From Candidatus Buchananbacteria bacterium (lineage in GTDB: Bacteria; Patescibacteriota; Patescibacteriia; Buchananbacterales; UBA6539), in assembly GCA_016930315.1 (NCBI GenBank), contig JAFGGX010000029.1:1-38827 (forward strand): a stretch of DNA of 38,827 bases, given 5' to 3'. The translations under genes and the position numbers were made by a program. The notes under the pieces are model-generated. The model was given only the letters and a program-made list of their open reading frames with translations, was not told the DNA's origin and ran no database searches. This document shows, piece by piece, positions 1 through 15,371 of this stretch (its first letter is position 1; every line of letters begins with the position of its first letter).

Positions 1-91
1 ACAGTATATGCGGTTCGCTCGTTGCACTTCGCTCTCCCATATTTTGCTCCGTTTCACTCCGCAAAACATCGCATATACTGAAACGTTGTGT
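1..91 (+). repeat. attC site 1 (left end truncated by window)
   Basis: Arms CAGTATATGCG (2-12) and CGCATATACTG (70-80) are perfectly inverted, followed by AAAC and the core GTTGTGT (85-91). The R'' box should end just before base 1 and is not visible. The loop starts GTTCGC, as in sites 2 and 3. It belongs to a cassette lying to the left of the window. Confidence 0.75.
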
Positions 92-739
92 GAAATATTT
101 TTATTAAAATTCAACTATATATCAAAAGATATCGACAAAAAAGAAATCATCAATTACTTTAGAGCTAATATCTACGAAGCTCTGGTCTCTTTTAATGCCT
201 GGCAAATTTTGTTTTTTTCAAAATCTAAAGATATGGTCTCTGAAGAATTAGCTAAACAATATGTTGAAATCCAAAATTACCACAAAAATTTTTTTGTTGC
301 AGCTGAAAGAGCTTTCCTTGTTAACGCAATAATGTTGCTTTGTCACTCATTCGACAACAGAGATGACTCCTTATCTTTGTACAAAATTAATAACGATAAA
401 ACAAAACTGTTCGTTTCAAAAAATAAAGCTATAATTAAAAAATTGAAAAATCTAAGATCAAAAATATTTGCCCATCGGGATGTTAAGGCAGAAAAAGATA
501 ACATAATTCCACCGGCAACTGAAATTGATGATTTTTTTAAAAACCTGATTTCTTTCTATAACGAATTATCAAAAAATGTTGATAATTCATCCACTTATTT
601 TAACCATGCAAACGATATTAAGAAAGATACCGATAACCTTCTTATGAATGTTTATAGGGGTGAGACTATTCGTAAAACAGAGGTAGACATTAAATGGAAA
701 TGGCAAGAAAACAACAAAAAAATATCTGGCATAATATAG
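86..739 (+). CDS. HEPN-domain (AbiU2-like) cassette protein
   Basis: An all-helical, lysine-rich protein of about 217 residues. The motif RSKIFAHRD fits the HEPN signature R-x4-6-H, and its wording (R.K..AHRD) matches the AbiU2-type HEPN group. HEPN proteins are often RNases in toxin-antitoxin, abortive-infection and other defence systems, so a defence role is an inference. The open frame begins at base 8 inside attC 1, which is coincidental. No in-frame ATG occurs before base 233, and starting there would remove the first helix. The TTG at 86, the first codon of the cassette, is therefore the most economical start but is unproven. The stop lies about 30 bp before the next attC, as expected for a cassette ORF. 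Confidence 0.6.
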   Translation: MCEIFLLKFNYISKDIDKKEIINYFRANIYEALVSFNAWQILFFSKSKDMVSEELAKQYVEIQNYHKNFFVAAERAFLVNAIMLLCHSFDNRDDSLSLYKINNDKTKLFVSKNKAIIKKLKNLRSKIFAHRDVKAEKDNIIPPATEIDDFFKNLISFYNELSKNVDNSSTYFNHANDIKKDTDNLLMNVYRGETIRKTEVDIKWKWQENNKKISGII

Positions 740-9501: not shown

Positions 9502-9530
9502 ATTTTAGCATTTCCTGGCAATTGTGACAA
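9502..9530 (-). promoter_or_regulatory. Sigma70-type promoter for the bactofilin-like gene
   Basis: On the minus strand, TTGTCA (9525-9530), a 17-nt spacer and TAAAAT (9502-9507) preceded by an extended TGC. It overlaps the last bases of the upstream methyltransferase gene and would give a leader of about 25 nt. Confidence 0.55.
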
Positions 9531-10200
9531 TATTTAAAAAACCCCTAGGTGAAGGCTCGGAAACCTCATTTTTAATGATTTCAAAGCCCTGTTTTTTTAA
9601 TTTTTTAGCCAATTTACGTTGTGAAAAAAGATGAACATATCGCTTTTTTTTAACCTGACCAAAAGAAATATAGATATCGCCAAAATCAAGTTGGTTTCGG
9701 CCAAAGATTTTAGCTATGGTATACTTAATTAATAACCACCAAATTTTTTTTGAGTGCCAGCACCAATTAGTCATAATTAAATAACCACCCGGCTTTAGAG
9801 CTGAGGCAATTTTTTCTAAAGCCTGATTACGCAATTTTTCACTGGGGATATGATGTAAAGACGCAATGGCAAAAACTGAATCAAATTGGGTCGCAAAATC
9901 AGGCAAGTCAACTAAATTGCCGATCATAAAATTACGATCCGGATATTTAGCCTGGGCAATTTTAATCAGCTCTTCGCTAATATCCAAACCGGTATAATTG
10001 ACATTGACAGATTTGAATAATTCGACTAGTCTGCCATTGCCACAGCCGACATCTAAAATCCGATCACTGGGCTTAATATAAGCCGAAAAATCCGAAAATA
10101 AAGACCAACCGCCCTTTCTGGTCTGATCCCATTGGCTGGCAATCTGATTATAGGTTTGCTTAACCGATTCAATTAAATTTTTAGCTTCCAAGATTTTCAT
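9505..10200 (-). CDS. Trm9/ALKBH8-like tRNA wobble-uridine methyltransferase
   Basis: A 231-residue class I SAM methyltransferase. The N-terminus YNQIASQWDQTRKGGW matches the Trm9 opening (YN.IA..F..TR...W). Motif I is ILDVGCGNGRLVEL, motif II the acidic GLDISE, and AIASLHHIPSEKLRNQALEKI..LKPGGYLIMTNW follows the Trm9 pattern (SIAVVHH...R...L..GG). The C-terminal RYVHLFSQRKLAKKLKKQGF resembles the family's YHVF...EL element. In eukaryotes Trm9 converts cm5U to mcm5U at tRNA position 34, acting after Elp3. It lies divergent to elp3 with a 13-bp gap, which supports the same role. A generic methyltransferase remains possible. The stop at 9505 overlaps the next promoter. Confidence 0.75.
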   Translation of the reverse strand: MKILEAKNLIESVKQTYNQIASQWDQTRKGGWSLFSDFSAYIKPSDRILDVGCGNGRLVELFKSVNVNYTGLDISEELIKIAQAKYPDRNFMIGNLVDLPDFATQFDSVFAIASLHHIPSEKLRNQALEKIASALKPGGYLIMTNWCWHSKKIWWLLIKYTIAKIFGRNQLDFGDIYISFGQVKKKRYVHLFSQRKLAKKLKKQGFEIIKNEVSEPSPRGFLNIVTIARKC

Positions 10201-10213
10201 AAGAAAAAGATAA

Positions 10214-11809
10214 ATGAATAATACTCAACTTGAGACAATCATACAAGCGTTAAATAAACGGCCTTTGAAAAATAGCCGGCAAATTTTAAATATCATCAGG
10301 CAAGAAGCCGGCAAATTCAAACAACCACCACCTCCCAAATCGGCTTTACTAACCGCCTACAAAAAACTAATCACCAAAAAACAAATTAAAATCCAGCCTG
10401 CTTTAAGACAGTTTTTAGTTAAACGGGCCGTTAGAAGTTTATCGGGCGTGTCGGTAATTACGGTTTTAACCAAACCATTCCCCTGTCCAGGCAAATGTGT
10501 TTATTGCCCCACTGAACTGATCATGCCAAAAAGTTATTTATCCAATGAACCAGCGGCGCAACGGGCTTTGCGCAATCAATTTGATCCACTAAAAATGATG
10601 GCTGCGCGCATCACTGCCCTAGAAGCTAATGGCCACGATGTTGATAAAATTGAACTGATTGTTTTGGGCGGTACCTGGTCGGCATACGACAAAAAATACC
10701 AAACTTGGTTTATCACCAGCTGTTTTTTTGCCGCCAACACTTACGGCAAAAAAAAGAAAAGAAAAATGAAAAGTCTGATTGAGGAACAAAAAATCAATGA
10801 AACGGCTAAATACAAAATTATTGGTTTAACTTTAGAAACTCGCCCTGACCATATTAATAAAAATGAAGTTAAAAGATTGCGCCAACTTGGTTGTACTCGA
10901 GTTCAACTGGGCGTTCAGCACACTGATGATAAAATTTTAGATTACATCAAGCGCGGTGATACCTTACAAAACGCCATTGACGCTACGCGCTTGTTAAAAG
11001 AAGCCGGTTTTAAAGTTGACCATCACTATATGCCAGATCTGCCGGGTTCAACTCCGGCCAAAGATTTAGCCATGTTTAAATACGTTTTCAGCCAACCAGA
11101 TTTACAGCCCGATCAAATTAAAATCTACCCAACAGTGGTTAACGAATTTGCCGAACTTTATAACTGGTACAAAACCGGCAAGCACAAACCCTACAAAGAA
11201 AAAGTGTTGCTAAAACTACTGCTAGACATCAAGAAAATTATTCCGCCCTATGTGCGAATCAATCGCCTAATCAGAGACATTCCCAAAGAAAGTATTACCG
11301 CTGGTAACAACATTACAAATCTACGCCAATACCTTCAGCAAGAAGCCAAAATTCAAGGCTGGAGTTGTCAGTGCATTCACTGCCGCGAAGTCCGCAACAC
11401 CGCCAAAACCACCGATAAAATTGAGCTGGTTAAACGTACTTATCGGGCTTCCGAAGGAACTGAGATATTTATTAGTTTTGAAAGCCCGGACCGAAAAAAA
11501 CTTTATGCTTTTTTACGCCTGCGTTTCAACGACCAATCAGAAAAAAATATTTTCCCCGAATTGCGCGGTGCTTCTTTAGTCAGAGAACTTCATGTCTATG
11601 GCCAAATGATTCCCGCCTTAAAACTCAGCGACCTAGACACTAAAACCCAACATCGTGGCTTAGGTTCTAAACTGATGGCCGAAGCGGAAAAAATGACTAA
11701 AGAAAATGGATTAAAAAAAGCAGCGGTCATCTCTGGCATTGGCGTAAAAAATTACTATCGTAAACTCGGCTACAAACAAATTGGAACTTATATGCTTAAA
11801 AATTTATAA
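10214..11809 (+). CDS. Elp3-like tRNA uridine(34) acetyltransferase, radical SAM + GNAT
   Basis: 531 residues with the two-domain architecture of Elp3. The radical SAM part (residues about 75-360) has the iron-sulfur motif PCPGKCVYCP, followed by SYLSNEP, ELIVLGGTW, GLTLETRPD and VQLGVQHTDD. The C-terminal GNAT acetyltransferase (about 400-531) has VRELHVYG, QHRGLGSKLM for acetyl-CoA, and GIGVKNYYRKLGY. A zinc-type CQCIHCREVRN element lies between them. Elp3 uses acetyl-CoA and a 5'-deoxyadenosyl radical to build cm5U at wobble position 34. It is single-subunit here, as in other bacterial and archaeal Elp3 proteins. The divergent Trm9-like gene would methylate the product. A good terminator follows the stop. 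Confidence 0.95.
   Translation: MNNTQLETIIQALNKRPLKNSRQILNIIRQEAGKFKQPPPPKSALLTAYKKLITKKQIKIQPALRQFLVKRAVRSLSGVSVITVLTKPFPCPGKCVYCPTELIMPKSYLSNEPAAQRALRNQFDPLKMMAARITALEANGHDVDKIELIVLGGTWSAYDKKYQTWFITSCFFAANTYGKKKKRKMKSLIEEQKINETAKYKIIGLTLETRPDHINKNEVKRLRQLGCTRVQLGVQHTDDKILDYIKRGDTLQNAIDATRLLKEAGFKVDHHYMPDLPGSTPAKDLAMFKYVFSQPDLQPDQIKIYPTVVNEFAELYNWYKTGKHKPYKEKVLLKLLLDIKKIIPPYVRINRLIRDIPKESITAGNNITNLRQYLQQEAKIQGWSCQCIHCREVRNTAKTTDKIELVKRTYRASEGTEIFISFESPDRKKLYAFLRLRFNDQSEKNIFPELRGASLVRELHVYGQMIPALKLSDLDTKTQHRGLGSKLMAEAEKMTKENGLKKAAVISGIGVKNYYRKLGYKQIGTYMLKNL
10218..10246 (-). promoter_or_regulatory. Putative promoter for the Trm9-like gene
   Basis: On the minus strand, TTGTAT (10241-10246), a 17-nt spacer and TATTAT (10218-10223). 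It lies inside the first codons of the divergent elp3 and would give a leader of about 10 nt. Confidence 0.4.
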
Positions 11810-11815
11810 TCGAAC

Positions 11816-11849
11816 AAAGTTGCTATTAACGGCAACTTTGATTTTTTTT
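11816..11849 (+). terminator. Rho-independent terminator after elp3
   Basis: Stem AAAGTTGC (11816-11823) with GCAACTTT (11832-11839), 8-nt loop, then GATTTTTTTT. Confidence 0.9.
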
Positions 11850-12534: not shown

Positions 12535-13881
12535 ATGACTAACAACAATATGATCAATAAAAAATTAGAAAATACTGACCCGACAATTGCCGAATTAATC
12601 GAAAAAGAAGGCAATCGGCAACAAAATGGGTTAGAAATGATTCCTTCGGAAAACCATTCCAGCCCAGCCGTGCGACAGGCTTTAGGCTCAATTTTGACCG
12701 ACAAGTATTCTGAAGGCTACCCAAAAAAAAGATACTATGGCGGCAATCAATTTATTGATGAGGTGGAACTAACCGCCATTGCCAGAGCCAAAGAACTGTT
12801 TGGCGTTGAGCACGTCAACGTCCAGCCATATTCTGGCAGTCCGGCTAACCAGGCAGTATACTTTGCCGTACTCGAACCAGGCGACACGGTCATGGGTCAG
12901 CACCTGTTTGCCGGCGGACACCTAACTCACGGCTGGGGTGTAAATTTTTCCGGTCGGTTTTACAAAAGCGCTCAATACCAAGTCGGCCAAGACGGCTATT
13001 TGAATCTAGATGAAATCAGACAATTAGCTTTAGAACACAAACCAAAACTAATCTGGTGTGGCGCCACTGCTTATCCACGAGAATTCCCTTTTGCCGAGAT
13101 GAGTAAAATTGCCGATGAAGTTGGTGCTTATTTTGCAACTGACATTGCTCACATCGCCGGACTAGTTGCCGGAGGTGCTCACGCCAGCCCAGTACCTTAT
13201 GCCCACATCATTACCACCACCACTCATAAAACTTTACGCGGTCCGCGCGGCGCAATGATTATGGTGACCAAAAAAGGTTTAGAAAAAGATCCGGAACTAC
13301 CAGAAAAAATCGATAAGGCCGTTTTCCCCGGTTTGCAAGGCGGCCCGCACAATCATCAAACCGCAGCCATTGCTGTTGCTTTAGGCGAAGCGTTAAAACC
13401 GGAATTCAAAACTTATGCCGCCCAAATTGTCAAAAACGCTAAAGCTTTAGCTGAGTCTTTAACTAAAAACGGCATTAAATTAATTTCAAACGGAACTGAT
13501 AATCACTTACTGTTGATTGACTTGACCCCTTTTGGCAAAGGCAAGGGTTTATTTGGCCAAGAAGGTTTGGAAAAAGCCGGAATTACGGTTAACAAAAACA
13601 CCATCCCAAACGATCCGGCGTCGGCTTTTTACCCCAGTGGCATTAGGCTTGGTACACCAGCATTAACTACCCGCGGGATGAAAGAAAAAGAAATGGAAAA
13701 AATTGGCGAAATTATTGCTCAAGCGCTCAAAATTGCCTGCGCCTTTGACTTTACAATTGATGATAAAGAAAAAAGAAAAAAAGACATTAAAGAATTTAAA
13801 AAACTAATTGGCCAAGAGACAAAACTAAACGAACTGAAACAAACGATCGAAGATCTTTGTAAGGATTTTCCACTGCCATAG
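12535..13881 (+). CDS. glyA: Serine hydroxymethyltransferase
   Basis: A PLP enzyme converting serine and THF to glycine and 5,10-methylene-THF. 448 residues, slightly longer than the bacterial norm near 415. Landmarks: [46 protein letters not shown], the [12 protein letters not shown] aspartate/histidine region, and the PLP lysine in [28 protein letters not shown] near the C-terminus carries the carboxylate-binding arginine. The ATG at 12535 and a second at 12550 are both plausible starts; neither has a good Shine-Dalgarno sequence. Its product feeds FolD, encoded two genes downstream. Confidence 0.97.
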
Positions 13882-13924: not shown

Positions 13925-14521
13925 ATGTTGAAAAGATTTAATCTAGAAAATCAAATTTATTTTATCACCAGTAAAACCTTTGACAACGAAAAGATTTTCA
14001 GCGATGATCGGAGTTGTCGGTTATTTATTGAAGTTTTAAACGAATGTAAAGATAAATACGGCTTTGAGTTGTTCGGGTATGTCATTATGCCCGATCATAT
14101 CCATTTATTGATTAAGCCAAATCCAAGGAATACAATTTCAGATGTCATGCATAGGATTAAAGGTAGTTTTGCCTATAAATATTTGATGATGACGCGGAAC
14201 CATAAAGGTTCCGCTACGCGAGAGAATGGCATAAATAAACCAACGCTACTGCGCATGAGTCAATCGCAACTCCGCGTAGCCGACCCTTCATGGGTTGGCG
14301 AAAAAAGGCAAAGGATAAAACAACAGCCAATCTGGCAAAAATCATTCTACGACCATGCCATCAGAAATCATCAAGACTTTCTGGAAAAACTAAACTACAT
14401 TCACAAAAATCCACTAAAACACAATATCGCTAACGATCTTAATCAATACCAATATTCCAGTTACCAAAATTATTATTTATCAAACAATAACCTAACTAAA
14501 ATCGATGAATACGAAATCTAA
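13925..14521 (+). CDS. RAYT-type Y1 (IS200-like) transposase
   Basis: A 198-residue HUH/Y1 transposase of the REP-associated (RAYT, TnpA_REP) type. The metal-binding HUH motif is in YVIMPDHIHLLIKP (residues about 54-67), and the catalytic tyrosine is in WQKSFYDHAIRN, followed by LNYIHKNPLKHNI, the typical RAYT C-terminus. RAYTs are single-copy, domesticated-looking relatives of IS200 transposases that process REP palindromes. Residues about 88-125 are an unusual segment encoded by palindromic DNA. The gene's end overlaps the start of folD by 17 bp, so it is embedded in the one-carbon operon. No flanking IS ends were identified. Confidence 0.9.
   Translation: MLKRFNLENQIYFITSKTFDNEKIFSDDRSCRLFIEVLNECKDKYGFELFGYVIMPDHIHLLIKPNPRNTISDVMHRIKGSFAYKYLMMTRNHKGSATRENGINKPTLLRMSQSQLRVADPSWVGEKRQRIKQQPIWQKSFYDHAIRNHQDFLEKLNYIHKNPLKHNIANDLNQYQYSSYQNYYLSNNNLTKIDEYEI
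14190..14302 (+). repeat. Palindrome-rich insert inside the RAYT gene
   Basis: Hairpin GCGGAACC/GGTTCCGC (14194-14201, 14207-14214), long-range inverted repeat GCTACGCG/CGCGTAGC (14213-14220, 14273-14280), and GACCC/GGGTT (14282-14286, 14292-14296). The encoded residues are absent from the conserved RAYT core, and the reading frame is kept. It looks like REP-type DNA captured in frame. Confidence 0.6.
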
Positions 14522-15371
14522 AAAAACTGCTGAAATTTTTGACGGTAAAAAATTAGCCGATGAAATTTTATTGGATTTAAGAAAAAAAATCCAACTGCTA
14601 CCCAGTCGACCAGGATTAGCTGCCGTTTTAATTGGCGAAGATCTAGCCTCTCATCTTTATGTTAATAGCAAAAAAAAGGCTTGTCAAAAAGTTGGCATTG
14701 ATTTTCATGAGTATCTTTGTGGCGAAAAATGCTACCGAGACATCAACCAAGAAGGCCTACTAGAGATGATTGATTTTTTGAATAACGACCCGGTTGTCGA
14801 CGGTATTATTGTTCAGTTGCCGCTACCTAAAGAATTTGACACGCAAAAGATAATCGAGCGAATTGACCCCAAAAAAGATGTTGACGTTTTTCATCCAAAA
14901 AATTATGAAAAATTTTTGACTGACGACAATCAACTAACTCCCCCGCTGATTCAAGCAATCCAAATTGCCTTGAGCCAAGTTAGAGAAAATCTAGCCGGCA
15001 AACAAACATTAATTGTGGCTAAAAACGAAATCTTTAGCCAATCATTAGACAAGGCTTTAGAAAAAAATGGCCTCAAAACTGAGGTGGCTAACCCAGATGA
15101 CAAAGACCTGCTAGCTAAAATAAAAATGGCCGACATCTTAATTTCAATTGTGGGTCAAAAACATTTTATTAAAGCCACAATGATCAAGCCTGGTGCGGTG
15201 GTAATTGATGCCGGCACGGTATTAGGTGAAGACAAAAAACTGTTTGGCAGTGTTGACCCAAAGGCCGAAAAAGTAGCCAGCTTTATTACACCAGTGCCAG
15301 GTGGAATTGGGCCATTGACTGTGGCAGCATTATTAAAAAATATTTACAAACTAGCAAACAATAAATTATGA
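14505..15371 (+). CDS. folD: FolD-like methylene-THF dehydrogenase/cyclohydrolase
   Basis: 288 residues, the normal length. FolD oxidises 5,10-methylene-THF and hydrolyses the product to 10-formyl-THF. The folate side is intact: the catalytic lysine in YVNSKKKAC, VQLPLP with its glutamine, KDVDVFHP with its aspartate, and TPVPGGIGPLTVA. The cofactor side is unusual: the PCTP loop reads LTPPL, and the NADP-binding G(R/A)S..VG.P element reads AKNEIFSQS. Dehydrogenase activity or cofactor preference may therefore differ. It overlaps the RAYT gene by 17 bp upstream and the Nudix ORF by 4 bp (ATGA) downstream, indicating translational coupling. Confidence 0.9.
   Translation: MNTKSKKTAEIFDGKKLADEILLDLRKKIQLLPSRPGLAAVLIGEDLASHLYVNSKKKACQKVGIDFHEYLCGEKCYRDINQEGLLEMIDFLNNDPVVDGIIVQLPLPKEFDTQKIIERIDPKKDVDVFHPKNYEKFLTDDNQLTPPLIQAIQIALSQVRENLAGKQTLIVAKNEIFSQSLDKALEKNGLKTEVANPDDKDLLAKIKMADILISIVGQKHFIKATMIKPGAVVIDAGTVLGEDKKLFGSVDPKAEKVASFITPVPGGIGPLTVAALLKNIYKLANNKL

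Follow-up and report, generated by a model that had tools for sequence, protein, structure and literature searches.

A cluster of Elp3 and Trm9 homologues in Sulfolobus solfataricus has been on record since 2008 (PMC2584109), and (m)cm5U34 has been reported for Haloferax volcanii (PMC6367351). An archaeal single-subunit Elp3 yields cm5U in vitro with no other subunits (PMC13315578). Statements on bacteria have differed: a 2017 review of Trm112 considered Trm9-like genes undetectable in bacteria (PMC5372719), a 2020 review described bacterial Elp3 as confined to one clade, Dehalococcoides (PMC7663514), and a 2026 paper mentions 'numerous bacteria' with Elp3 (PMC13315578). Our literature search found no paper on Elp3 or Trm9 in Patescibacteria, and relative to the literature found, the wide occurrence of an Elp3-Trm9-like gene pair in Patescibacteria is new.

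The window considered here is the whole stretch of DNA analysed, 38,827 nucleotides from a Candidatus Buchananbacteria bacterium. Its gene content points to a two-gene wobble-uridine module of Patescibacteria, which we regard as probable, in which Elp3 would form cm5U34 and a Trm9-like methyltransferase (MT) would convert it to mcm5U34 without Trm112.

The locus and its Elp3 gene

The locus lies on a contig of 38.8 kb from an 897 kb genome in 53 contigs, with the bacterial core genes rpoC, recA, ftsK, ruvA, and ychF elsewhere on the same contig. The two genes are divergent, as originally described, and both are complete, with their start codons 13 bp apart (Table 1). Because only this short gap separates the starts, the promoters of both genes must sit there or in the 5' end of the neighboring gene; the overlapping regulatory DNA that had been proposed is implied by the spacing alone, and a promoter scan of the gap region gave no excess of matches (8, versus a shuffle mean of 6.9). 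The overall number of terminator-like matches was likewise not above that in shuffled sequence, and the hairpin downstream of Elp3 is suggestive only. The window also holds a transposase gene flanked by those for serine hydroxymethyltransferase and folD, overlapping the start of the latter, as well as tandem genes for Mur-ligase-domain proteins beside ruvA, and a HEPN domain protein that is possibly defence-related.

Table 1. Features of the window, with positions counted from its first nucleotide
Feature	Position	Strand	Basis
AbiU2-type HEPN domain protein	8-739	+	30.7 bits vs cut-off 26.8
Trm9-like class I SAM methyltransferase (MT), 231 aa	9505-10200	-	intact ORF; Methyltransf_11
Gap between the two ATG codons, 13 bp	10201-10213	.	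sequence
Elp3 (radical SAM + GNAT/KAT), 531 aa	10214-11809	+	intact ORF; TIGR01211
Terminator-like hairpin, 10 bp stem, then T-run, 3' of Elp3	11815-11840	+	terminator-like match
Serine hydroxymethyltransferase	12535-13881		
REP-associated tyrosine transposase	13925-14521	+	NF047646, 132 bits
folD	14505-15371		
Mur-ligase-domain protein, 443 aa	34762-36093	-	
Mur-ligase-domain protein, 439 aa	36100-37419	-	

The larger of the two divergent genes encodes an Elp3, with a predicted function as tRNA U34 carboxymethyl synthase. The match to TIGR01211 (539.6 bits; cut-off 350) starts at residue 10 and spans the full length, and the radical SAM (PF04055), C-terminal radical-SAM (PF16199), and GNAT domains were all found, which bears out the complete radical SAM-GNAT protein described at the outset. 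Alignment to the archaeal Elp3 structures 6iaz/6ia8 scored 398 bits, and yeast Elp3 also aligns. The closest named relatives by Elp3, at 62-65% identity, include Candidatus Komeilibacteria, which places the host most probably in the Patescibacteria (candidate phyla radiation, CPR).

Linkage and co-occurrence in Patescibacteria

In the host order, seven genomes carry the divergent pair and an eighth has the two genes at the ends of contigs, while the four genomes without Elp3 are also without a close methyltransferase. Our survey of 144 genomes of the class revealed both genes in 83, the methyltransferase only in 10, Elp3 only in 3, and neither in 48 (Fisher p about 1e-24 for co-occurrence, a value that ignores relatedness among these mostly metagenome-assembled genomes). 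Under a stricter score the corresponding counts were 75, 5, 11, and 53, and the 11 Elp3-bearing genomes without a strong methyltransferase match count against the proposed module. The genes lie no more than 1 kb apart in 64 of the 83 two-gene genomes; these 64 represent 37 families, and the genes are divergent in every one of them. This adjacency is far above chance and is not unique to the host genome.

The same arrangement recurred in other samples. Sixty of 80 named Elp3 loci had the methyltransferase within about 2.5 kb, in records assigned to Komeili-, Buchanan-, Falkow-, Magasanik-, Portnoy-, Moran-, Staskawicz-, Peregrini-, and Gracilibacteria, with one Subteraquimicrobium; in a phylum-wide sample, it lay within 1.5 kb at 18 of the best 30 Elp3 loci, always on the opposite strand. 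Two of the records with the pair are named outside Patescibacteria, that of Candidatus Subteraquimicrobium, labelled Actinomycetota, and a metagenome-assembled genome labelled Lysobacteraceae, which may be a contaminated bin.

Wobble-uridine modification context

MnmG was found neither in the host genome nor in any of the 144 genomes of the class, in a search with positive controls, and in only 6 of 240 genomes phylum-wide. The 89 Elp3 carriers of that phylum sample include none of these six, which suggests that the two routes to modified U34 may be mutually exclusive. A one-for-one replacement of MnmG by Elp3 within the class was considered and dropped, because none of the 144 genomes has MnmG, whether Elp3 is present or not.

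The host genome encodes MnmA (424 bits), whereas CmoA and CmoB were undetected there by query search. Trm112 (PF03966) was not found in it either, as had been predicted for this pair, and across the class PF03966 matches are few, weak, and nearly all within long ORFs. The host tRNAs include those with anticodons UUU, UUC, UUG, UCU, UCC, and UAA, serving Lys, Glu, Gln, Arg, and Gly as well as Leu, and these boxes have C34 partners too. With MnmG absent and neither CmoA nor CmoB detected, the genome shows no further carboxylated U34 substrate of a known kind, and this context leaves Elp3 as the sole visible source of C5-modified U34. For an enzyme of the Trm9 type, cm5U would then be the natural substrate.

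Identity of the methyltransferase

Domain libraries class the 231 aa protein as a class I SAM methyltransferase and nothing finer. A search of the PDB with the single sequence placed Yarrowia Trm9 first, at 51.1 bits versus 48.2 for unrelated methyltransferases, a lead too narrow to call, so that the resemblance required further tests. With a profile of 35 relatives, the best solved structure was again Yarrowia Trm9 (5cm2_Z, 102.1 bits; runner-up, 85.6), in an alignment that covers profile positions 21-222 and runs through the C-terminal lid with its D..xPW and RYxH motifs. Furthermore, Yarrowia Trm9 and haloarchaeal (Natronorubrum) queries each matched this gene alone in the genome, and the best Trm9 match was the Elp3-adjacent gene in 60 of the 64 genomes with the linked pair. 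A Trm9 search of phages gave no match, and one of plasmids gave a single haloarchaeal homologue, not beside an annotated Elp3.

In Trm9, residues R29, H115, R241, Y243, and N271 matter for tRNA binding and activity (PMC5372719). Four of these five are kept: R28, H116, R187, and N223 of the methyltransferase correspond to R29, H115, R241, and N271 of Sc Trm9, which are conserved in 29, 25, 30, and 30 of 30 family members, respectively. The Trp of VWALEQ is also kept in 30/30, and in other methyltransferases these Trm9-type residues (R29, H115, R241, N271, and the VWALEQ Trp) present a mixed picture. Y243 is not kept: this protein has Val at the site, and the family varies there, with Tyr in 13 of the 30. 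In the lid, this protein has a Phe at the site of the usual PW motif. In the AlphaFold model, which is of high confidence (pLDDT 90.6), two strands (175-180 and 185-190) lie where Trm9 has its two-stranded lid, and a helix spans residues 151-165, a region with only a short counterpart in Yarrowia Trm9. A Foldseek search with this model ranked an uncharacterised Methanosarcina methyltransferase (3sm3) first and Trm9 second; because Trm9 came only second and all class I folds score, this comparison was dropped as a discriminator.

The non-conservation of Y243, this helix, and the failure to detect Trm112 in the genome would also be consistent with an enzyme that works on what Elp3 makes, or on the tRNA that Elp3 modifies, other than as a cm5U carboxyl methylase, for example with another cm5U derivative as the final nucleoside or with methylation at a different position. 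We consider this unlikely, given that four of the five residues important for Trm9 activity are kept and that the tRNA context offers no carboxylated U34 other than cm5U among known substrates.

In trees with other class I methyltransferases, the family grouped with Trm9 at a support of 80/59, or 93/83 when long branches were pruned, with two Trm9-type references only and no ALKBH8 in the trees, eukaryotic Trm9/ALKBH8 being otherwise left out. The predicted affiliation with Trm9 is thus recovered in the best tree with moderate support, but an AU test did not reject grouping with UbiE (p 0.27), so that the tree by itself is no proof of Trm9 membership. Besides this test, the low-scoring matches of the single sequence to numerous class I methyltransferases and a PF01209 score of 28.2, above a lax cut-off of 20.1, might indicate a generic Methyltransf_11 enzyme of the UbiE/BioC-like kind, methylating a small molecule and placed beside Elp3 by chance. 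The divergent position beside Elp3, seen in 64 genomes from 37 families, makes this improbable, as do the NCBIfam scores, which are far below cut-off for UbiE/COQ5 (39.5 bits versus 216, and 38.5 versus 158) as well as for BioC and UbiG, and the reciprocal search, in which E. coli UbiE matched other genes of the genome and never the methyltransferase. CmoM, the cmo5U34 carboxyl methylase, was also rejected, as the E. coli CmoM query missed the methyltransferase at E 0.01 and the genome has no detected CmoA or CmoB. By profile, reciprocal search, and best tree, the protein appears to go with Trm9 and not with UbiE/COQ5, a clustering that had been named as one that would overturn the original prediction, and it is a predicted cm5U34 carboxyl methyltransferase.

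Catalytic residues of Elp3

Across 29 aligned Elp3 proteins of divergent sequence, the cluster cysteines C91/C95/C98, the residues E208, K303, and Y305, and the zinc-site cysteines C385/C387/C390 are all invariant. E208/K303/Y305 are the counterparts of the archaeal tunnel residues E207/K302/Y304 (infernus numbering), which are essential for activity (PMC13315578). That the pair has ceased to modify tRNA, or that this Elp3, intact by sequence, has another substrate, as the very weak activity of the tested Dehalococcoides enzyme could suggest (PMC7663514), is highly improbable in light of these invariant motifs, of an N-terminal extension that is short in the Dehalococcoides protein (PMC7663514) and present here, and of the finding that, in vitro, Elp3 enzymes from all three domains are triggered to hydrolyse acetyl-CoA by tRNA and not by histone or tubulin peptides (PMC6367351).

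A proposed two-gene module

In the module that we propose, Elp3 alone would use acetyl-CoA (or derived acetate) and a SAM radical to place a carboxymethyl group onto C5 of U34, giving cm5U34, and the divergently encoded Trm9-type methyltransferase would esterify the carboxylate of cm5U34 with SAM to mcm5U34. In tRNA-Lys, tRNA-Glu, and tRNA-Gln, 2-thiolation by MnmA would lead to mcm5s2U34. By analogy with archaeal and bacterial Elp3, no other Elongator subunits would be needed. The methyltransferase would act without Trm112; known Trm9 enzymes work with Trm112, which counts against this step, as the AU test, the Foldseek ranking, the non-conservation of Y243, and the lid Phe count against the module as a whole.

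The intact genes, the catalytic residues, the orthology-type evidence, the linkage, the absence of MnmG, the non-detection of Trm112, and the presence of MnmA and of U34 tRNAs are observed, and from them we infer both reactions, their tRNA targets, and the independence from Trm112. The original observation is confirmed, and its interpretation is partly supported, with the chemistry of the pathway still read from the genes. We also lean, if only slightly, towards a broader proposal, that much of Patescibacteria uses, in place of MnmE/MnmG, an Elp3-Trm9 pathway of archaeal and eukaryotic type, free of Trm112, which leads to mcm5U34 and, with bacterial MnmA, to mcm5s2U34. It would be the first mcm5U pathway in bacteria and possibly a minimal form of the Elongator/Trm9 system.

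The pair is widespread in Patescibacteria, a group in which almost every genome sampled is without MnmG, and it offers a testable answer to how their reduced genomes modify U34. If mcm5U is made, a nucleoside used as a eukaryotic and archaeal signature would also be bacterial, and a Trm112-free Trm9, if confirmed, would provide a simple system for the study of wobble-ester formation.

Comparison with known systems

The proposed reactions, from U34 to cm5U and then mcm5U, are shared with yeast Elongator and Trm9-Trm112 and with human ALKBH8-TRMT112, as are the Elp3 catalytic core, the Trm9 fold, and most active-site residues. The Patescibacteria system differs from these in that no Trm112 was found in the host genome, AlkB and RRM domains are absent, Y243 is not kept, and, if archaea are a guide, further Elongator subunits would not be expected. 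The gene identities and the pathway originally proposed from them hold up, but because an Elp3-Trm9 cluster was already known in Sulfolobus, the term 'eukaryotic' overstates the precedent, which is also archaeal (PMC2584109, PMC6367351).

The MnmE/MnmG (+ MnmC) system likewise acts at C5 of U34, in the tRNAs that read split codon boxes, with chemistry and enzymes that differ from those of the Elp3-methyltransferase pair, which would take its place here, where MnmG is absent. The Elp3 of Dehalococcoides mccartyi is also bacterial and stand-alone, and differs in its short N-terminal extension. A stand-alone Elp3 together with a Trm9-type methyltransferase is shared with the archaea Sulfolobus solfataricus, where the genes are clustered, and Haloferax volcanii (PMC2584109, PMC5372719). 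Archaea like H. volcanii possess both Trm112 and an archaeal-type thiolation (Tuc1), whereas in the Patescibacteria host Trm112 is undetected and thiolation would be carried out by MnmA, and the gene arrangement is a divergent pair conserved in bacteria.
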